This document shows positions 9,193 through 58,619 of a stretch of DNA of 64,000 nt, one piece after another. Every line of letters starts with the position of its first letter. Within the stretch, counting starts at the first letter, position 1. Origin of the DNA: Fervidobacterium pennivorans DSM 9078 (GTDB lineage Bacteria; Thermotogota; Thermotogae; Thermotogales; Fervidobacteriaceae); assembly GCF_000235405.2 (NCBI RefSeq), contig NC_017095.1, positions 496,001 to 560,000 on the forward strand, given 5' to 3'. The translations under genes were made by a program, and so were the position numbers. The notes beneath the pieces were generated by a model. It had not been told where the DNA came from. It saw only the letters and a list, made by a program, of their open reading frames with translations, and ran no database searches.

Positions 9193-10842
9193 GTGACCAA
9201 AAAGACTTTGATATTTGTATTTTCGTTGTTCTTGATAGGTTCTGTCTCCTTGTTCTTCTCGAAACCATTTGTTTTTAGTTACGACATACGAATGATTATT
9301 GCTTCATTGATAGCTATGTTTTTAGCTCAGTATATTGAAATTCCCATTGGTGGGGTTAGATTCACTGCCAAGCCTTTTTTGTACCTGTTTTTAATTCCTT
9401 TTATCACTCCGGAAACGGTAATGTTTCTCTCATTGCTCACGATACCTCTAGTAAAGAAAATTCCTTGGCAAACAAAGCTTCTTAGATTAGCTTTTGAGTT
9501 CTTGCAATTTTCAGTAGGTATCTTTTTTTTCAAACATGCTATTTATGACTATCTATCGCTGGTTTATTTCGCTGCCGGTTATTTTGCCACAAACGTTATA
9601 CTCAGTTTTGTTTACATACCCTTTTTTACAAAGACGAACTTGAAGAACTATCTTAGTGTAGGATTTCTTGTGTTTTTACTAGGTCTCTACGCCTCTTTGA
9701 TTGTAACCACGCTTTACATTTTGCCAGAAGTGAAGTTGACTTATTTGATTTTTACATTTCTACTCTACGCTGGTTTTTTGGTCCAGCTGCATTATACTGT
9801 AACAGCACAAGTGTGGTATCAAGAATTGAAGTACGAGCAGGATGAGATTAAGAGAGAAATTGAAAACCTTTCAAAGATACCAGCTGTCTTGGAAGAACTG
9901 GGAAGGGAGGATGTAGATAAAGTATTAAGTGATCTACTTGAAGTATCGTGTAAAATGATAGGTTTTTCTGCTGCGTTGCTGAACTTATTTGATTATAAGT
10001 CAGGTAGGGTTGTAAGAGTTGCAAAGTATGGGATTAAAGACGAAGATTTCGAGATGTTAAAAAGCAGACAACCGCAGATAAAAGATACACTGGTACTGAT
10101 GCAGAGTCGTTTTGACTCAGGAGGGGTTTATTTTATTCCGAAAGGTAGTATTAATTTGGATCAGACGTATGTTTTCAGACCATTAGAATATGCTATGCTA
10201 GATGTTGATAATGCATGGGACCCGGATGATTTATTCCTTGTGCCATTAATATACAATAACAAGACAATTGGATACATCAGCTTCGACAAACCTATCAATG
10301 GTTTAAGACCGGCAAAAAGGGAAATCGAATTGTCAAAGTTTTTTGCTTGGCAATTTGTACAAATTGTAAAAGAAAGTAAGTATCGAGGATTTTTCTTAAG
10401 TTACTACCCAGAAGAAACTACAGTCTCAGAATTAATGGAAGAAATATCGAAAGCTATAGAGATGAAACGAACTTTTTCGTTCGTGTATTTGGACATAGAT
10501 AATTTTGATAAGCTTAATCTTGAAAAAGGCTATGCTTTTGGCGATGAGATATTGCGAGAAATCAAGAAATCTTTAGAAAATGAAGTAAGAAACTATGGGT
10601 TTTACACTCGTATAGGTGATGAGTTTATGATTTTGCTGTGGACAAAAAGCAAGTCGGATGCAATGATTTTAGTCCAAAAAGTAATTGAAAATGTTAAAGA
10701 GAAGTACCCTTATGTGAGTATCAGTGGTGCAGTTGTCAAGTATCCAGTTGATGCGGGCAATTTGGAAGGGATATTGAACAAAGCTAAAACTGCTTTGAAT
10801 GCGAGTAAGAAGTCTGGAGGAGGACGCTTAATCAACATATGA
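9193..10842 (+). CDS. Membrane protein with degenerate GGDEF domain
   Basis: The first 200 residues or so hold six or seven hydrophobic segments. A cytoplasmic region follows (about 230-400) that resembles a GAF-type sensory domain, then a C-terminal nucleotide-cyclase-like domain (about 410-549). The metal-binding DID of LDIDNF is kept, but the signature reads IGDEF (474-478) instead of GGDEF, and the usual N-terminal D-LTGL-R stretch is missing. Diguanylate cyclase activity is therefore uncertain; it may bind rather than make c-di-GMP. GTG start at 9193 after GGGGGGAAAG. It overlaps truA by four bases (ATGA). Confidence 0.75.
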   Translation: MTKKTLIFVFSLFLIGSVSLFFSKPFVFSYDIRMIIASLIAMFLAQYIEIPIGGVRFTAKPFLYLFLIPFITPETVMFLSLLTIPLVKKIPWQTKLLRLAFEFLQFSVGIFFFKHAIYDYLSLVYFAAGYFATNVILSFVYIPFFTKTNLKNYLSVGFLVFLLGLYASLIVTTLYILPEVKLTYLIFTFLLYAGFLVQLHYTVTAQVWYQELKYEQDEIKREIENLSKIPAVLEELGREDVDKVLSDLLEVSCKMIGFSAALLNLFDYKSGRVVRVAKYGIKDEDFEMLKSRQPQIKDTLVLMQSRFDSGGVYFIPKGSINLDQTYVFRPLEYAMLDVDNAWDPDDLFLVPLIYNNKTIGYISFDKPINGLRPAKREIELSKFFAWQFVQIVKESKYRGFFLSYYPEETTVSELMEEISKAIEMKRTFSFVYLDIDNFDKLNLEKGYAFGDEILREIKKSLENEVRNYGFYTRIGDEFMILLWTKSKSDAMILVQKVIENVKEKYPYVSISGAVVKYPVDAGNLEGILNKAKTALNASKKSGGGRLINI

Positions 10843-51583: not shown

Positions 51584-52513
51584 ATGCAAACATCGAATCT
51601 TTTTTTGGCAACAGTTCTAATTGCAGAATTCCTGATAGGTTTATTAGCCTTTCCACGATACATTGGCTATATGAAAAAACTAAAATTAGGACAGTACATA
51701 AGACAAGAAGGGCCTGATTTGCATAATTATAAAGAAGGCACCCCAACAGCAGGAGGTATAGTCTTTTTATCAATCGCACTTATAGCCGGAATCGTTCTTG
51801 GAGTGAAAAAAGAACTCCTGCTGACAATTTTGTTCTATGGTTTTATCGGGTTTTTGGATGATTTCGTTAGCATAGCAAAGAAGCGCTCTTTGGGACTTAA
51901 GGCCTGGCAAAAGTTAGCATTACAGATGCTGTTTTCGGTATGGATAGCCTTCACTGTTCTCCAATATCGTGAAAGCACTATATTTGGTCTTCCCGTTCCA
52001 AAGTGGTTTTTTTACATATTTACGATGTTTCTAATTTCTGGGTATTCCAACGCGACTAACCTGACAGATGGACTTGATGGACTTGCCGGATGGGTATTCA
52101 TCACTAGTTCATTGCCATTTTTGCTTTTGGCAAATGATTATAATCAAGTAATCTCAATATTAGTTCTCATCATGCCATTGCTTTCGTTTCTTGTGTATAA
52201 CACAAGACCTGCAAAAGTTTTCATGGGTGACACAGGTTCATTGGCACTCGGAGCTTATATCTCGACATATGCGTTAATGACAAGCAATGAACTTCCGCTT
52301 ATTTTCTTTACAACCATATTCTTGTTGGAAACGATAAGTGTAATACTCCAAGTTGGTTCATTCAAACTCAGGGGAAAAAGGATTTTTAAGATGGCACCTA
52401 TACACCACCATTTTGAACTGCTCGGCTGGCCAGAAGAAAAGATAGTTGGTGTCTTCAGTGCTTGGAACCTTGCAATTGCAATTACTTATCTCTCTTTCGC
52501 TTTAAAGTTTTAG
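51584..52513 (+). CDS. mraY: Phospho-MurNAc-pentapeptide transferase MraY
   Basis: Integral membrane enzyme that makes lipid I from UDP-MurNAc-pentapeptide and undecaprenyl phosphate. About ten membrane helices; GTPTAGGIVFL, FLDDFVSIAKKRSLGLKAWQK, NLTDGLDGLAG, KVFMGDTGSLALG and MAPIHHHFELLGW are the signature loops with catalytic aspartates and the histidine box. 309 residues. ATG 51584 after CGGAGGTCCG. Third of the mur genes in order. Confidence 0.95.
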   Translation: MQTSNLFLATVLIAEFLIGLLAFPRYIGYMKKLKLGQYIRQEGPDLHNYKEGTPTAGGIVFLSIALIAGIVLGVKKELLLTILFYGFIGFLDDFVSIAKKRSLGLKAWQKLALQMLFSVWIAFTVLQYRESTIFGLPVPKWFFYIFTMFLISGYSNATNLTDGLDGLAGWVFITSSLPFLLLANDYNQVISILVLIMPLLSFLVYNTRPAKVFMGDTGSLALGAYISTYALMTSNELPLIFFTTIFLLETISVILQVGSFKLRGKRIFKMAPIHHHFELLGWPEEKIVGVFSAWNLAIAITYLSFALKF

Positions 52514-52550
52514 AATATCAAAATCCTTTAACAACGGGGGTTTTTGTTAC

Positions 52551-53480
52551 TTGCGTTACTTGAATCCGTATTCGTTGGGATTTATTTTTAGCACATTGTT
52601 TTCCGCTCTTTTTGTCTATTGTTGTAAAAAGTTTAACGTACTTCTTGACCATCCATCGGAGAGGAAAGAACACAAAGAAGCAGTTCCTCTCGTAGGTGGT
52701 GTGGTTCTCTTTATTTACACATTGTACTTAAAATTCAATCAACAGTTCACAGATATAAGGAAAGAATTGCCGCTCTATATTGTATTCACGATAGGTCTGA
52801 TTGATGATTTGATAGAACTGCGTTATTACACGAAGTTACTTTTACAATTCTTTGCAGGTATGTTTTTTATCAACGCATATCATTTTGTATTTACAAACAA
52901 TGCAAAGCTCGACACTTTTTTGACCCTCGTTTTTTTCATGACGCTTTTGAATGCTTTCAACCTTGTGGACGGAATTAACGGACTTCTCATAGGATTGGCA
53001 ATAATTTACTTTACATTCACGCAGAATTTTATATACCTACCAGTGCTCTTTGTTTTGTTCCTTTTTAATGTTTTTGACAAATTGTTTATGGGTGATTCCG
53101 GTGCATTTTTGATTGCTTACTTGCTCATCTCTGATGAACAAGTTCCCAGGGAACTTACTAGAGCTCTGGTGTTTTTTGGCTATCCTATGTATGAAATAGC
53201 CTCCTCATTTCTGAGGAGGCTACTTTTGAAAAAGAATCCGTTCAAACCTGATAGGTTTCACTTGCATCACATAGGAACCAAACTTTTTGGCAGTACGTTC
53301 TTTTTGATTCTTGCATACTCGTTGGTCATAGGTTTTGTTTTGTTATCAGCCAAGAAATTCGGGTTGTTCGTCTATATCGCTATCAGCTTGTTGATTTTTC
53401 TCTTTCAGTTCATTTTTATCAAAAACAACTGTATCAACAGCTCCAATGGCATGACGGAGAGAGACAAGAGCAACTTCTAA
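52551..53480 (+). CDS. WecA/TagO-like polyprenyl-phosphate sugar-1-phosphate transferase
   Basis: MraY superfamily, 309 residues with about ten membrane segments: PLVGGVVLFIYT, GLIDDLIELRYYTKL, NLVDGINGLLIG, LFMGDSGAFLIA and FHLHHIGTKLFG. The His-rich loop (DRFHLHH) and the lack of the HHHFE box set it in the WecA/TagO branch, which transfers GlcNAc-1-phosphate to undecaprenyl phosphate to start secondary polymers. TTG start 52551. Placed directly after mraY, so two enzymes compete for the same lipid carrier. Its last 135 bases overlap the convergent gene at 53346. Confidence 0.85.
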   Translation: MRYLNPYSLGFIFSTLFSALFVYCCKKFNVLLDHPSERKEHKEAVPLVGGVVLFIYTLYLKFNQQFTDIRKELPLYIVFTIGLIDDLIELRYYTKLLLQFFAGMFFINAYHFVFTNNAKLDTFLTLVFFMTLLNAFNLVDGINGLLIGLAIIYFTFTQNFIYLPVLFVLFLFNVFDKLFMGDSGAFLIAYLLISDEQVPRELTRALVFFGYPMYEIASSFLRRLLLKKNPFKPDRFHLHHIGTKLFGSTFFLILAYSLVIGFVLLSAKKFGLFVYIAISLLIFLFQFIFIKNNCINSSNGMTERDKSNF

Positions 53481-54263
53481 TTGTGAATCGTTTGGTTCAG
53501 CAGTAGTAAGTTTTTGTAAAATCATACCAGGAAGTGCCAAGAATCGGATTTTTGGATATCTGTCAAAAAGTCTCAACAACTCATAAGAGATTCCTGCAAC
53601 CACGGGTATTGCGATGATTCTGAAAACAATGCGACCTAACATTGTAACTCCGAGAAGACCATATAAACTGTGCACCAGTATTGCGATTATTAAGAAAATC
53701 ATAACAAAATTCGTTCCACACCTTGGATGTATTGTTGAGTATTTCCTTGCGTTTTCGACAGTCAGTTCCTCGTTATGTTCGTATGTATGAACTGCCTTAT
53801 GCTCAGCTCCATGGTATCTGAATACGTTTTTGACATCCTCAAAGAGCGATATGAAAAACACGTATGATAGGAAAAAACCCAACCTTATCAAACCATCCAC
53901 CAAAGAAAAGAGAAATTCGTTATCTTTGAATCCCAACCATTTTGTTAAATAAGCAGGAAGGACAATAAACAAGCCTACAGCCAAACCAACAGCAACAAGA
54001 ATTGAGAAGAAAGATTCGCCTTTCTTCATTTTTTCATCAGAAGAGATTTCAGCACTGAGATTCAGCGCCTTTATACCAAAGTAAAGAGAGTAGTACAGGC
54101 TTATAAATCCACGTATAAATGGTATTCTCATCCATTTTTGACTGACACTTGGAGTTCCAAGCTCGCGAACTTGTATCTCCCCTGACTGCGTTCTAACAGC
54201 TACAACTACCTTTTTACCCATCATTAAAACGCCATCAATTACCGCTTGACCACCGACTTTCAA
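53346..54263 (-). CDS. YqhQ/DUF1385 family membrane protein
   Basis: 305 residues. Family landmarks: VGGQAVIDGVLMMGKK at the N-terminus, FRYHGAEHKAVHTYE, HPRCGTNF and about five membrane segments. The function is unknown; the conserved His, Glu and Cys residues suggest a metal site. Start at TTG 54263, 8 bases after AGAGG; the frame runs on to 54386 without an SD. A terminator hairpin (54296-54320) lies just upstream. The nonconserved C-terminal tail (about 35 residues) overlaps the end of the convergent WecA-like gene. Confidence 0.85.
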   Translation of the reverse strand: MKVGGQAVIDGVLMMGKKVVVAVRTQSGEIQVRELGTPSVSQKWMRIPFIRGFISLYYSLYFGIKALNLSAEISSDEKMKKGESFFSILVAVGLAVGLFIVLPAYLTKWLGFKDNEFLFSLVDGLIRLGFFLSYVFFISLFEDVKNVFRYHGAEHKAVHTYEHNEELTVENARKYSTIHPRCGTNFVMIFLIIAILVHSLYGLLGVTMLGRIVFRIIAIPVVAGISYELLRLFDRYPKIRFLALPGMILQKLTTAEPNDSQLEVALVSLRHAIGAVDTVVFDKNELKEKNQQADSDIDEQPEFLG

Positions 54264-54295
54264 AATCTTCACCTCTTTCCCGTTTGCTTTACATT

Positions 54296-54320
54296 TAAAA
54301 AAGGTGCCACAACGGCACCT
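54296..54320 (-). terminator. Terminator upstream of the YqhQ-family gene
   Basis: AGGTGCC / GGCACCT stem with a run of six T on the minus strand. It ends the transcript from the spoVS side. Confidence 0.75.
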
Positions 54321-54330
54321 AATATTAAAA

Positions 54331-54594
54331 TTATCGCTCACTTTCCTTTTTAATTTCTTGGTAAAATTCAATAATCTTCCTTGCATTTTGGTCTTCTAAT
54401 ATGATTTTGTAGAACTTGTAAGCTTCCATATCTTCGGGGGTGTTTTTTGTCATAAAATAGCTAACTACTTTGCTTCGGAATTGTTGCAAATCTTCTTGCG
54501 ACATTTGTGATATTGAATAGACTATCTCGTAAATCCTTTCGTCTGTAATGCAAGCTTTTGCAATAACTCTCAGTTCTTCCAACCGCTCCTCCAT
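54331..54594 (-). CDS. Small conserved-looking protein of unknown function
   Basis: 87 residues, mostly helical and charged (EERLEELRVIAKACITDERIYEIVYSISQ as the start, in part), with no membrane segment or recognised motif. Start ambiguous: ATG 54594 with weak SD GATGGAAG, or TTG 54582 behind GGAGGAG. Lies between spoVS and a terminator, so likely cotranscribed with spoVS. Confidence 0.6.
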   Translation of the reverse strand: MEERLEELRVIAKACITDERIYEIVYSISQMSQEDLQQFRSKVVSYFMTKNTPEDMEAYKFYKIILEDQNARKIIEFYQEIKKESER

Positions 54595-54624
54595 CTTCCA
54601 TCAAATTTTTTCAGTTCCACAAAA

Positions 54625-54903
54625 TTAGTTTTTAGACTCACTTTTTTGAAGGTAAACCTTGAAAGATATACCGGTTCTTGTTTCATTACCGATTTGAATT
54701 TCAATGAAAGCTGGGACAACGTAGAGGTCTAATCCTTCCTGCTCCAAAAATCTTCTTGCAACCGCTAAAGATTTCGATGCTTGGTTAACTGCGCCAGCAC
54801 CGATGGCTTGAATCTCTACCTTTTCGTTCTTCTTCAGTGATCCAACAATGGCACCCGCAACCTTGTTTGGACTTGACTTTGAGCTGACTTTCAAAATCTC
54901 CAT
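54625..54903 (-). CDS. spoVS: SpoVS-family nucleic-acid-binding protein
   Basis: 92-residue Alba-like small protein: MEILKVSSKSSPNKVAGAIV, IQAIGAGAVNQASKSLAVAR and FIEIQIGNETRTGISFKV are the highly conserved family segments. In Bacillus it affects spore coat and septum development; its presence in non-sporulating Thermotogae shows a more general role, perhaps RNA or DNA binding. ATG 54903 after CAAGGAGGAT. Nothing unusual in the sequence. Confidence 0.93.
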   Translation of the reverse strand: MEILKVSSKSSPNKVAGAIVGSLKKNEKVEIQAIGAGAVNQASKSLAVARRFLEQEGLDLYVVPAFIEIQIGNETRTGISFKVYLQKSESKN

Positions 54904-55112
54904 AATGCCTATCCTCCTTGTTCTACAGAGATTAGAATTGGCTTAATATGTTACTAAGTTTGACTATATTTTACCACAAAATTGTTAAAAAAGCAAATTC
55001 TTTTTGCAAAAACCAATTTTAATAAGAGGATTCGTAGGTAGATATCAAAAGTTGTCCAGAGGTTGTATTTATGCGGGGAAAAGAATTTTATTGGCAAAAT
55101 CTTATCCAAAAT
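54904..55112. other. Intergenic region upstream of spoVS
   Basis: A/T-rich, without an ORF or hairpin of note. It must hold the spoVS promoter on the minus strand. The rest of this 328-base gap is the small-RNA unit described separately. Confidence 0.5.
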
Positions 55113-55142
55113 TTGACATTACTTCCTAAAAAGTGGTATACT
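55113..55142 (+). promoter_or_regulatory. Strong promoter of a candidate small RNA
   Basis: Consensus TTGACA (55113-55118), 18-base spacer, extended -10 TGGTATACT (TATACT 55137-55142). It is the best-matching promoter noticed in the window, and no coding gene follows it on this strand. Confidence 0.7.
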
Positions 55143-55148
55143 ATGTGC

Positions 55149-55228
55149 AGTAATGGGGGTACTGGGGATAGGTGGGAGCTGTCTCTATACGTTATGTGTG
55201 CACGCCACAGGCGTGCACACTTTCATTT
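55149..55228 (+). ncRNA. Candidate small noncoding RNA, about 75-80 nt
   Basis: Between the promoter at 55113 and a strong terminator there is no room for a gene. The hairpin is GTGTGCACGCC / GGCGTGCACAC (55196-55206, 55210-55220; loop ACA), followed by TTTCATTTTTATT. The RNA body is G-rich, with runs GGGGG, GGGG, GG and GGG between 55154 and 55177. The only ATG in it (55153) lacks an SD. It lies antisense to nothing known, just beyond the 3' end of cysK. I do not recognise a family. Confidence 0.5.
55196..55228 (+). terminator. Terminator of the candidate small RNA
   Basis: 11-bp perfect stem with a 3-base loop and a T-rich tail on the plus strand. On the minus strand the tail (ATAACG) is not T-rich, so it is unlikely to have evolved as the cysK terminator. 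Confidence 0.8.
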
Positions 55229-55231
55229 TTA

Positions 55232-56149
55232 TTATTTTCTACACAGAGAAGAAATATATTTCGAACCATCGTCAGGAAAAACGGTGGCAACGCGCTGTAA
55301 ACCATATTTTTCTTTAACTAATATACTTGCGATTAGATTAGCAGCGGACGATATTCCCACAAATATTCCTTCCTTCCAAAGCTTAGAAGTCCATCTTATA
55401 GCTTCTTCGTCATCTACCTGAATTATTTCATCTACCAGCTGTAAATCTAAAATTTTAGGTACGAATCCAGCACCGATGCCTTGGATTCTGTGTTTACCTG
55501 GCGTTCCCCCGGTTATAACCGGTGATTGTAAGGGTTCTACACCTATAATTTTGATTTCAGAACAAAAGTTTTTCAGAAACTTTCCAACACCTGTTATTGT
55601 TCCACCGGTTCCGATACCCGCTACAAAGGCATCTAACTGAAAATCCATTTGGCTTAACAACTCTGGTCCAGTTGTCACAAAATGTGCATTGACGTTTTCA
55701 GGATTTTCAAATTGATTTGGCATGAACGCAGATTTTGTTGAAACAATCTCAAGCGCTTTTTCTACCGCCTTTGACATGTTTTCAGTAAGGATTACATCTG
55801 CACCTAAACTTGTCAATATTTGACGTCGTTCAACCGAAACAGTTTCTGGCATTGTAATGATTGTTTTTAGACCAAGTCTTGAACCTATCCAAGCGAGGGC
55901 AATTCCCGTATTACCACTGGTCGGCTCAACAATGATAGTATTGGGATTTATTAATCCATTCTGTATAGCCTTTAGAATCATAAAGTATACTGGTCTGTCT
56001 TTAATACTACCGGTTGGGTTATTTCGCTCAATCTTAACATAAATAGAGTATTTCTCCAGATAAACAAGAGGAGTCTTTCCAACGATTATATTTCGAAACA
56101 AACGGAGATATTCAGATAGTAACCGATTGCTGAGACATTCGTTCGTCAC
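55232..56149 (-). CDS. cysK: Cysteine synthase (O-acetylserine sulfhydrylase)
   Basis: PLP enzyme of fold II that makes cysteine from O-acetylserine and sulfide. ERNNPTGSIKDRPVYFM holds the PLP lysine, then EPTSGNTGIALAW, GIGTGGTITGVG (phosphate loop) and GISSAANL. 305 residues. GTG start at 56149, 7 bases after GGAGG, overlapping the cysE stop by four bases. With cysE it forms the complete two-step route from serine. Confidence 0.94.
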   Translation of the reverse strand: MTNECLSNRLLSEYLRLFRNIIVGKTPLVYLEKYSIYVKIERNNPTGSIKDRPVYFMILKAIQNGLINPNTIIVEPTSGNTGIALAWIGSRLGLKTIITMPETVSVERRQILTSLGADVILTENMSKAVEKALEIVSTKSAFMPNQFENPENVNAHFVTTGPELLSQMDFQLDAFVAGIGTGGTITGVGKFLKNFCSEIKIIGVEPLQSPVITGGTPGKHRIQGIGAGFVPKILDLQLVDEIIQVDDEEAIRWTSKLWKEGIFVGISSAANLIASILVKEKYGLQRVATVFPDDGSKYISSLCRK

Positions 56150-56865
56150 ATTAATACCTCCTCTAAGTTGTTTTCATTTCTGAAACAAAGTCCATCAGAC
56201 CCTTCACCGTCTTTGTGTATTGCAGAGTGAGATAGATGAGGGTTTGCATTTTCTGTGTTATTTTTAAAAACAATACGTGCAGGAATTCCAACAGCGGTTG
56301 CATCTTTTGGAACATCAGAAATAACAACACTGTTCGCGCCTATTTTGGCGTTGTCACCGATATACACTGGTCCAAGCACTTTTGCGCCTGCTCCGATTAT
56401 CACATTCCTCCCAACGGTTGGATGGCGTTTTCCTTTTGTTATGTATTTTGCACCAAGAGTAACACCATGATACAGTACTGTACCACTACCGACTACCGCT
56501 GTTGAACCGATAACGAGACCTGCCCCGTGGTCTATTACAACCCCCGGTTCTAACAGTGCAGCTGGATGAATATCAACGGTGTACAATATTCGATTGATAT
56601 GGTATATTAGATAAGCTAAGAACTTGAAACCCGACACGTAAAGCGCATGCGAAATTCTGTAAAGTCTTAACGCTCTGAAACCAGCGTGGAAGAGATACTG
56701 GTAGGAACTTTCGAAAGAGGGATCTAAACGTCTTAGGTATTCTTTGTCAAGCTTAATAGCCCTACTCGCATTAATTATCTCTGCTGTGAGCTTTTTAAAT
56801 TTTCTGAAATCTACCAAAAGATGCACCCCATTACAACCACTCTCCATCCATGTGAATTTACTCAC
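56146..56865 (-). CDS. cysE: Serine O-acetyltransferase
   Basis: First step of cysteine synthesis: acetyl-CoA plus serine gives O-acetylserine. Helical N-terminus with RISHALYVSG, then the left-handed beta-helix of hexapeptide repeats with DIHPAALLEPGVVIDHGAG, the loop GTVLYHGVTLG and KRHPTVGRNVIIGAGAKVLG (in blocks). The start is uncertain between GTG 56865, ATG 56847 and GTG 56826; none has a good SD. The C-terminal tail after the helix (HLSHSAIHKDGEGSD) is longer than usual. Coupled to cysK. Confidence 0.93.
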   Translation of the reverse strand: MSKFTWMESGCNGVHLLVDFRKFKKLTAEIINASRAIKLDKEYLRRLDPSFESSYQYLFHAGFRALRLYRISHALYVSGFKFLAYLIYHINRILYTVDIHPAALLEPGVVIDHGAGLVIGSTAVVGSGTVLYHGVTLGAKYITKGKRHPTVGRNVIIGAGAKVLGPVYIGDNAKIGANSVVISDVPKDATAVGIPARIVFKNNTENANPHLSHSAIHKDGEGSDGLCFRNENNLEEVLM

Positions 56866-56910
56866 TTAGGTCAGACTAAGTATAGGGTATCATAACATTC
56901 CAAATTTGTC
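56864..56910 (-). promoter_or_regulatory. cysE promoter region with a palindrome
   Basis: On the minus strand, a consensus TTGACA (plus-strand TGTCAA at about 56908) is followed by a weak -10. A palindrome ACTTAG-N6-CTAAGT (56864-56881) lies at or just after the expected transcription start, next to the possible GTG start, and could be an operator. Confidence 0.4.
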
Positions 56911-56973
56911 AAGCATGGAAGAAAAACCTTTAGATTCTTAAAAAGTTCACTTAAGAATAACAGAAACTCACTC

Positions 56974-57003
56974 TTGAAATTTTTGATAACTTTGTGGTAT
57001 AAT
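56974..57003 (+). promoter_or_regulatory. Promoter of the perR gene
   Basis: TTGAAA (56974-56979), 18-base spacer, extended -10 TGGTATAAT (TATAAT 56998-57003). The -10 lies inside the left arm of an inverted repeat described separately. Confidence 0.65.
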
Positions 57004-57037
57004 AGACTTGGACATTGTAAAAGGTTATACCAAAGTT
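56988..57037. promoter_or_regulatory. Inverted repeat over the perR promoter (candidate operator)
   Basis: AACTTTGTGGTATAAT (56988-57003) faces GGTTATACCAAAGTT (57023-57037); the right arm reversed reads AACTTTGGTATAACC. The arms match at 13-14 positions with one gap. The left arm covers the -10 box. It could be an autoregulatory site for PerR or a leader hairpin; it is not a classical PerR box. Confidence 0.45.
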
Positions 57038-57052
57038 CAAGGAGGAGGCGTG

Positions 57053-57487
57053 ATGGTAAAAAGTGATGTGAAAGACGTGAAAAGCGAGATACGCGAGTTG
57101 TTGAAAGAAAAAGGTGTAAAACCTACTGTTCATCGAGTGGAGATTTTAGAATACCTTAGTAAGACTTACTCACATCCTTCGGCAGATGATATTTATGAGC
57201 ACTTTGTTAAAGAGCAAAGACTATCAGTGCTTTCAAGGGCAACTGTATACAACACACTTAGAGCTCTGGCAGAGGCTGGATTGGTCAAAGTAATCATTAC
57301 TCCCGATGCTATAAGATACGATTTCGCAAAGGAAAATCACCACCATTTTTACTGCACACAATGTAAAAAGATATACGATGTTGAACTTAACGTTGAGCTT
57401 CCTAACATTAGCAAAGTTGATGGTCATGAAGTTCGAAATGTGCAACTCGCATTGGTAGGTGTGTGCAAAAGCTGTTTAAATCGCTGA
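57053..57487 (+). CDS. perR: Fur-family regulator, PerR type
   Basis: 144 residues: winged helix (VLSRATVYNTLRALAEAGLV) and a dimerisation domain. Structural zinc pairs are CTQC (Cys101/104) and CKSC (Cys138/141). The regulatory-metal ligands fit peroxide-sensing PerR rather than Fur: His41, Asp90 in RYDF, His96-98 and Asp109 in KIYD. PerR represses oxidative-stress genes until iron-bound His is oxidised by peroxide. The rubrerythrin and superoxide reductase genes follow, separated only by an IS. ATG 57053 after AAGGAGGAGG. Confidence 0.9.
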   Translation: MVKSDVKDVKSEIRELLKEKGVKPTVHRVEILEYLSKTYSHPSADDIYEHFVKEQRLSVLSRATVYNTLRALAEAGLVKVIITPDAIRYDFAKENHHHFYCTQCKKIYDVELNVELPNISKVDGHEVRNVQLALVGVCKSCLNR

Positions 57488-57514
57488 TAATGTACCAGTT
57501 TTTCAGATATTTTT

Positions 57515-57547
57515 GTTCATCTGTCCTCTGTCAAGGGAAGATGAACA
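57515..57547 (+). terminator. Hairpin after perR
   Basis: GTTCATCT (57515-57522) pairs with AGATGAAC (57539-57546), with further inner pairing. The following bases TTGTAAAAAA are not a good U-tract, so it may be a weak terminator or an RNA-processing hairpin. Confidence 0.45.
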
Positions 57548-57560
57548 TTGTAAAAAATTC

Positions 57561-58619
57561 GATAGTGTTAACTTGTAGTGATGAAAGAGTGTAATTGTGA
57601 AAGAATGCGATTGATATTGCCATTGTGCGTTTTCCAAAGATTCTTCACTACACAAAATCCTTGAATATATTTCGCTAAGTTCTTCGTATTCTTCAGCCCT
57701 CGCTTGAGTCGGAAAAAGTCTTTCAACAATGAAAACTTAGATTCACATTGATTGTTTTTACCGAGCGGTACCACTACGTGATTGATATTTCTGAACAACA
57801 GCTTTACTGCACTTTCATATGCACCAAGTCCATCAGTAATAAGTTCAATGTTTCTAGGTTTTGAATTACCAAAGAACTTCTCGAGCAATACTTTGACTTG
57901 TCCCATATCACGATACTTTGAGACATGCCAACAAAGAATTAAGTTAGTTTCGTGATCAACTAATAGCCAAACATAGTACTTTTGTTCTTTGAACACAAGA
58001 ACAGTTTCATCAGCATGAACTGAGAAAACATTTTCGATGGTAAATGTTGGAAAAAGTACAGAGAATAAAGTACACAATTTAATAACCCATTTGTATATGG
58101 TGACATGAGATACTTTGATATTAAGAGAATGAGCAAGAGAGCGATAAGACATATTGTGTTTCATATACAAAACAAAAGCCTTTAAGACGAAAAAGATAGG
58201 GAAGCGGAAATATTTAAATTTCTCAGGAATAAGGGTGACTGGTTCGGGGAGGTTAAAAGGTACTCTATCTTTGGTACGACAAGCTCTACAACGGAAGACA
58301 ACGAAAGAGCGACGGACTTTGTAAATTTGCATAGATTTACCACAAGAAGTGCATTTGGGATAAGGGAAAGGGAAGTTTTTGCGTTTTTGAGAATGGGAGA
58401 GTTTGAAAGAATGATGGCAGAGTTTGCAAAGGAATTGTTGGTTACCGTATTTGTCATGACCGTTTTTGTATAAGCTGGTGGAACCGCATTTTGGACAAGA
58501 GAGCGTTGAGTTGTTCATATCGGGATACCTCCTTTGTCGAGAGTTGGTTGGGGGGTGTCCCCTCTTTATAAGGATAATGCGGTTTTTGGAAAGTTTCAAT
58601 ACTTTTAGTTAACATTATC
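57561..58619 (-). mobile_element. IS6-like insertion sequence, copy 2
   Basis: Same 1059-bp element and ends as copy 1 at 41960. The target duplication is AAAAATTC (57553-57560 and 58620-58627). It lies between perR and the rubrerythrin gene, 12 bases before that gene's SD, in the same orientation as copy 1. Confidence 0.95.
57568..58518 (-). CDS. IS transposase, zinc-ribbon DDE type (copy 2)
   Basis: 316 residues, intact. It differs from copy 1 at four residues or so: Gln for His and Pro for Ser near the second zinc stretch, and Arg for Cys and Gln for His close to the C-terminus. The catalytic residues are unchanged, so both copies may be active. ATG 58518 by analogy with copy 1. Confidence 0.9.
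   Translation of the reverse strand: MNNSTLSCPKCGSTSLYKNGHDKYGNQQFLCKLCHHSFKLSHSQKRKNFPFPYPKCTSCGKSMQIYKVRRSFVVFRCRACRTKDRVPFNLPEPVTLIPEKFKYFRFPIFFVLKAFVLYMKHNMSYRSLAHSLNIKVSHVTIYKWVIKLCTLFSVLFPTFTIENVFSVHADETVLVFKEQKYYVWLLVDHETNLILCWHVSKYRDMGQVKVLLEKFFGNSKPRNIELITDGLGAYESAVKLLFRNINHVVVPLGKNNQCESKFSLLKDFFRLKRGLKNTKNLAKYIQGFCVVKNLWKTHNGNINRILSQLHSFITTS

Follow-up and report, generated by a model that had tools for sequence, protein, structure and literature searches.

The window analysed here is a stretch of 64,000 nt from Fervidobacterium pennivorans DSM 9078, covering positions 496001-560000 of a genome of 2,166,381 bp (hereafter G000). Next to cysK and spoVS, and on the plus strand opposite to both, it carries a compact series of transcription signals. 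The -35 hexamer TTGACA (55113-55118) is followed by an 18-nt spacer and an extended -10 element, TGGTATACT (55134-55142), in which TGG occupies 55134-55136 and TATACT 55137-55142; both hexamers were found by consensus scan, and the distance from the -10 element places the predicted transcription start at 55149-55150. About 6 nt past this start begins a G-rich core, GGGGGTACTGGGGATAGGTGG (55155-55175), with the 5′ half GGGGGT (55155-55160) and the 3′ half GGGGATAGGTGG (55164-55175). Four G runs lie here, at 55155-55159 (GGGGG), 55164-55167 (GGGG), 55171-55172 (GG) and 55174-55176 (GGG). A variable linker (55176-55195) then leads to a terminator-type hairpin of 11 bp, GTGTGCACGCC-ACA-GGCGTGCACAC (55196-55220), and to a T-rich tail, TTTCATTTTT (55221-55232). 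We refer to the predicted small RNA at 55149-55232, about 80 nt long and recognised by the covariance model R1, as G-RNA.

Direct reading of the sequence thus finds promoter, G runs, hairpin and tail where an earlier note on this DNA had placed them, and in the orientation that it gave. Only the extent needs correction: the T tail runs up to 55232, where it meets the 3′ end of cysK, and on the other side conservation reaches upstream to a box, AAAAGTTGTC...TATTTATGCGG (55048-55075, plus strand), whose pattern occurs once in the window against 0.02 occurrences expected. We predict that this box is probably a regulator site.

Counted singly, promoter-like and terminator-like sites are not commoner than in shuffled sequence, and single elements are therefore no proof of a transcription unit. 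Within 52000-58000, the promoter ranks joint first (11/12 with TGn), and the hairpin, with 11 pairs of which 8 are G-C, is the longest stem of terminator type. It is the combination that stands out: a promoter scoring at least 11/12 that has a perfect, G+C-rich stem of at least 8 bp and a T tail within the next 160 nt occurs once in the 64 kb, at G-RNA, and in none of 30 dinucleotide shuffles.

The unit was recovered by BLAST from eight Fervidobacterium genomes (G000, G001, G003, G004, G005, G006, G007 and G008) and from G013, which belongs to another genus of the same family. The covariance model R1 returned the same picture, with G-RNA in 8/9 Fervidobacterium genomes and G013 at E < 1e-21, and a search of 103 Thermotogota genomes under stricter filters gave nothing convincing beyond the BLAST set. 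The two copies in G008 are identical, lie close to the ends of a single contig and probably reflect an overlap in the assembly. Conservation is sharply segmented. Mean identity is 0.72 in the upstream box (10 of 28 positions invariant), 0.94 in the -35 region, 0.88 in the -10 region, 0.98 in the core (20/21 positions invariant) and 0.91 in the hairpin, as against 0.38 in the promoter spacer, 0.39 in the linker and 0.34-0.37 in the DNA on either side of the upstream box. The -35 hexamer is invariant in nine loci; the -10 element is conserved in nine, reading TAAAAT in G013. While the linker varies freely in length, from about 17 to 37 nt, the hairpin is unusually conserved in sequence, and 9 of its 11 pairs are constant; in G005 one pair has changed on both sides, from C-G to U-A, a compensatory change. 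No conserved fold was found for the core, whose predicted pairs differ among species. The earlier note had made its proposal of an undescribed small-RNA gene depend on conservation of promoter and hairpin in close relatives; both are conserved in nine genomes, together with the core, and in Rfam 15 no family reaches its gathering score, the best match, to an unrelated family, having E 4.6.

The genes around the unit change from genome to genome. It is flanked by spoVS and cysK in G000, G007 and G008, by a gene of dihydroorotase type, so assigned by eye, together with cysK in G005 and G006, by the same gene and an acetate/butyrate-kinase-type gene in G013, and by other genes in G001 and G004. 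The unit is thus a gene in its own right, distinct from cysK and spoVS, and the link with sulfur metabolism via cysK/cysE that the earlier note had left open is not supported; the predicted downstream targets described below are competence and purine genes. The same comparison bears on the idea that the unit works mainly as a cis-antisense device, in which a minus-strand read-through RNA from cysE-cysK, fully complementary to G-RNA, would couple it to sulfur metabolism. The minus strand has no T tail behind the hairpin, so that cysK transcription may run on, and cysK converges on the unit in G000, G005, G006, G007 and G008. In G013, G001 and G004, however, the partner gene is a different one and the core is equally conserved, and we consider this explanation very improbable.

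As an observation on the neighbourhood, open frames encoding NLVQRGQNR or NLVLRGQNR recur upstream of the dihydroorotase-type gene (loci L005, L007, L008 and L010). Their recurrence suggests a conserved nucleotide element divergent to G-RNA, perhaps a PyrR-type site.

With a promoter, a Rho-independent terminator, no conserved ORF and a conservation that does not depend on neighbours, the unit has the features of a trans-encoded, intrinsically terminated sRNA, and on these features we take the locus to be a genuine small-RNA gene that is conserved in Fervidobacterium. Several other identities were considered and rejected. Reading frames do cross the site, but a small ORF is rejected: in the 22 nt past the core the sole start codons are 17-19 nt away and present in 4/9 sequences, none stands at a distance suited to ribosome binding, and the linker is diverged and variable in length. 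A leader or riboswitch is rejected in view of the downstream gene, which is convergent or far and differs among genomes, and a terminator of cysK in view of the missing T run on the cysK strand. The window contains no tRNA or tmRNA. Regarding a phage origin, IMG/VR has no exact match to the G-RNA hairpin or to the seed of C-RNA1 (see below), and the 19 viral matches to a 15-mer of the core, not inspected singly, are no more than expected by chance. Further matches in Lentisphaeria, a MAG, G022, G068, G009 and G044 lie within ORFs or lack promoter and hairpin, and were taken as chance.

The G runs also invite an explanation by protein binding, in which two GGA motifs (GGGGA and GGUGGRA) recruit CsrA or the runs form a protein-bound two-layer quadruplex. 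The two motifs and the four runs are kept in 9/9 sequences, the runs (at least 2 G each, with short loops) satisfy the sequence pattern of a G-quadruplex, and a CsrA-like ORF is present in the sampled genome. CsrA sponges usually have many GGA loops. G-RNA has two GGA motifs only and no conserved core hairpin, and so departs from the CsrB/RsmZ type, while a G-quadruplex does not account for the constancy of the A, U and C that separate the G runs. Protein binding would further leave unaccounted for the invariant first block, GGGGGYACU, and the antiparallel match of both core halves to C-RNA1, and we judge it improbable. Less plausible again is a 23S rRNA decoy that would bind an rRNA-binding factor. 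Here, GGAUAGGUGGGAG equals a segment of 23S rRNA, with an identity of 13 nt in the clade of G000 and 15 nt in G013; against this, the identity falls to 10 nt in G001, G003 and G004, and that segment contains nothing that corresponds to the invariant 5′ half GGGGGYACUGG. We regard a decoy as highly unlikely.

If G-RNA acts by base-pairing, its partners may be mRNAs or other small RNAs. A role as a direct regulator, with the core pairing to C-rich mRNA stretches such as the 3′ untranslated region of glnA, finds some encouragement in CCAGTACCCCCA, a perfect 12-nt complement to the core 5′ half located just before the terminator behind glnA (L400 70-130, G000:1950070-1950130). One or two 12-nt matches are, however, expected by chance in the sampled DNA. 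In a sample of 824 kb of G000 (38%), containing 730 ORFs called by a simple script, the ribosome-binding regions (-30 to +9) yielded no complement to G-RNA longer than 8 nt. We therefore consider direct regulation of mRNAs unlikely. The absence of own targets at these 730 ribosome-binding sites is instead a property expected of an RNA sponge.

Small-RNA partners emerged when the complement of the core 3′ half (CCACCTATCCCC, allowing one mismatch) was searched in the genus: CCCCCTATCCCC occurs about twice per genome. The 11-mer CCCCTATCCCC has 59 occurrences in 20 family genomes, where base composition predicts at most about 0.3 per genome, and these fall mostly in two intergenic genes, both conserved and equipped with promoter and terminator, as well as opposite ribosome-binding sites, on the other strand. 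We labelled the two genes C-RNA1 and C-RNA2. In G000, C-RNA1 is an intergenic C-rich unit with promoter and terminator on the minus strand (G000:C1:184803-184877, loci L122/L237), reading GAGAACCCCCTATCCCCCTTGAGATACACCCCCCACGGC... before the terminator and convergent with a gene whose product has an MnmE-like C-terminus (assigned by eye). C-RNA2, a second C-rich unit with a seed common to C-RNA1, also lies on the minus strand (G000:C1:1898851-1898940, locus L154), reads CAGCGACCCCCCTATCCCCCCTTGGAA... before its terminator, and is about 0.6 kb from dprA, whose own ribosome-binding site is complementary. A model of C-RNA1 found it in 97/103 Thermotogota genomes, mostly with strong E-values; a model of C-RNA2 found this RNA in the family and weaker relatives in the next one. 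Outside the family, CCCTATCC is kept in 26/29 inspected loci, and a T run stands behind in 27/29. Rfam has no match for the C-RNA1 or C-RNA2 loci. C-RNA1 is thus predicted to be an uncatalogued, phylum-wide C-rich small RNA, arguably a larger discovery than G-RNA. G-RNA itself was not detected in G002 and G009, both of which have C-RNA1 and the comM site described below, a distribution that speaks against the sponge model proposed here.

The complementarity between G-RNA and C-RNA1 is bipartite. The core halves GGGGGU and GGGGAUAGGUGG face, in C-RNA1, CCUAUCCCC followed by ACCCCC, which is the order required for antiparallel pairing. In G000, the motif CCTATCCCC-N(1-18)-CCCCC is confined to C-RNA1 and the antisense of G-RNA itself; over 20 family genomes nearly all matches are again C-RNA1 or G-RNA antisense, and the backward control of the motif gives 2 matches in the same 20. 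The predicted duplex (RNAduplex, with a cofold structure for the 5′ half) joins GGGGGU/ACCCCC, an internal loop, GGGGAUAGG/CCUAUCCCC and GGG/CCC in about 18 bp. Its predicted binding energy at 70 °C is -15.1 to -17.6 kcal/mol, a gain of 2.4-7.3 kcal/mol over the shuffle mean whichever partner is shuffled, and in every genome tested it beats at least 91 of 100 such shuffles. Binding to C-RNA2 is predicted at -11.1 to -14.1 kcal/mol at 70 °C and is less distinct, up to 42 of 100 shuffles being equally good; in the clade of G000, the linker start GAGCUG can lengthen this predicted pairing with CAGC of C-RNA2. Loop-tolerant duplex energy was dropped as a means of ranking partners because it does not discriminate, with C-RNA1 at -34.9 and the best GC-rich windows of G000 at -36 to -40. 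The case therefore rests on the contiguity of the helices, on their order and on conservation. The core and the C-rich seeds hardly vary among genomes, which leaves little room for compensatory change between the RNAs. The earlier suggestion that the G runs pair with C-rich targets thus takes a specific form, the predicted partners being two other small RNAs. We note that pairing does not account for the invariant ACU between the halves, nor for the invariant sequence of the stem.

What the C-RNAs in turn may act on is indicated by the ribosome-binding sites. In the 730-ORF sample, perfect complements to C-RNA1 lie in the -30 to +9 regions of purK (19 nt), a GGDEF protein gene (18 nt), dprA (12 nt) and purH (12 nt), the gene identities being assigned by Pfam. 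Matches of at least 12 nt thus occur at 4/730 ORFs against a shuffle mean of 0.1, and none of 300 shuffles reaches four. The comM gene ran off the sampled stretch and stands outside the scored set; on direct reading, its ATG is preceded by AAGGGGGATAGG, which matches C-RNA1 perfectly over 12 nt, and its ribosome-binding site, GGGGATAGGAGG, resembles the 3′ half of the G-RNA core. By script, this site is strongly complementary to C-RNA1 in 9/10 Fervidobacterium and g2 genomes, and in the tenth, G001, it is complementary too once the correct start is taken. Beyond these, the complementarity possibly extends to G011 and G030 and is absent in most of the remaining order, and radC of G005 also bears the motif. 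Across the family, ribosome-binding sites that read GGGGGATAG..ATG outnumber the backward control about threefold, a ratio to be read with the preference of Shine-Dalgarno sequences for G runs ahead of ATG and with the fact that some matches are repeats. Besides the 19-nt complement in its leader, purK (L390 around 10639-10732, G000:1420639-1420732) has a second complement to C-RNA1, AAAGCCGTGGGGG, near the start of its coding sequence.

In sum, we propose that G-RNA is a sponge that titrates C-RNA1 and C-RNA2 and thereby releases DNA-uptake and purine genes, and consider this the best explanation of the sequence data, with a probability of roughly 0.68. This reading is favoured because core, promoter and hairpin are conserved against a diverged linker and spacer in changing neighbourhoods, and because the bipartite motif is near-exclusive to C-RNA1, its antiparallel order is right, and C-RNA1 fits ribosome-binding sites beyond what shuffles give. 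Under this model, G-RNA would be expressed as a stand-alone, intrinsically terminated RNA whose invariant core base-pairs with the C-rich seed of both partners. The C-RNAs would be trans-acting regulators, their C-rich 5′ domains covering the ribosome-binding sites of comM, dprA, purK, purH and the GGDEF gene, and the perfect complements of 12-19 nt suggest repression. By imitating a ribosome-binding site, G-RNA would draw the C-RNAs away, possibly towards joint decay, and the net result would be more ComM, DprA and purine enzymes; the conserved upstream box may set the timing. A wider and more tentative scenario, to which we give somewhat less than even odds, holds that C-RNA1 is an ancient, phylum-wide RNA silencing dispersed genes at their ribosome-binding sites, that in Fervidobacteriaceae it joined comM/dprA with purine synthesis, and that the G-RNA of Fervidobacterium evolved as an off-switch imitating the competence ribosome-binding site.

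The proposed arrangement has a precedent in RosA of Bacillus subtilis, a sponge of RoxS and FsrA whose G-rich regions neutralise C-rich seeds (PMC8216469). Like RosA, G-RNA appears to be a stand-alone, G-rich sRNA directed against the C-rich seeds of two sRNAs that bind ribosome-binding sites, a functional likeness for which we claim no homology. RosA is about 229 nt long with three G-rich regions, controlled by CcpA and experimentally proven, whereas the predicted G-RNA has about 80 nt and one bipartite core; partners, targets and phylum differ as well. RsaI of Staphylococcus aureus, as described in the same paper, likewise sets G-rich regions against C-rich sRNAs but has in addition a C-rich region for mRNA targets, which G-RNA lacks. 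C-RNA1 in turn recalls RocR of Legionella pneumophila, in the account of a review (PMC9977716) one trans-acting sRNA on the 5′ regions of several DNA-uptake mRNAs. In that account RocR needs the ProQ-type chaperone RocC, whereas no chaperone was identified for C-RNA1, and the predicted targets of C-RNA1, unlike those of RocR, are comM, dprA and purine genes; the review's passages on RocR mention no RNA that titrates it. The csRNAs of Streptococcus pneumoniae (PMC4507080) offer another functional likeness, several related sRNAs restraining competence by pairing with a competence mRNA. These are controlled by CiaR and target comC, whereas late competence genes and an added sponge are predicted here.

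Thermotogota are deep-branching bacteria with almost no known sRNA regulation; a transcriptome study of T. maritima, in its account of ncRNAs, lists only 12-13 putative ones, without structure or function (PMC3636130). In Thermotoga, the putative competence genes do not form a cluster (PMC4029938), and a multi-target RNA would therefore be a natural route to their co-ordination. A conserved pair of sRNA and sponge, if borne out, would give Thermotogota a base-pairing regulatory network and an independent case, in a thermophile, of the RosA principle of a G-rich sponge against C-rich sRNAs. The sponge would also offer a handle for making genetically stubborn thermophiles transformable.

Three minor observations concern sequences related to these RNAs. 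In the loci sampled, 23S rRNA (L371 near 12050, plus strand; L394 near 9484, minus strand) holds GGATAGGTGGGAGGC, identical over 10-15 nt to the core and linker of G-RNA. In G008, an insertion of about 1 kb, similar to the IS element at 57568-58599 of the window, interrupts C-RNA1 (L209, G008:C1:1943246-1944787); the seed remains and the terminator is displaced. Finally, G003 has a further C-rich, sRNA-like unit (L233, G003:C56:9150-9217), in which ACCCCCTATCCCC...ACCCCCAGTGGCCCGC is followed by a hairpin and a T tail.
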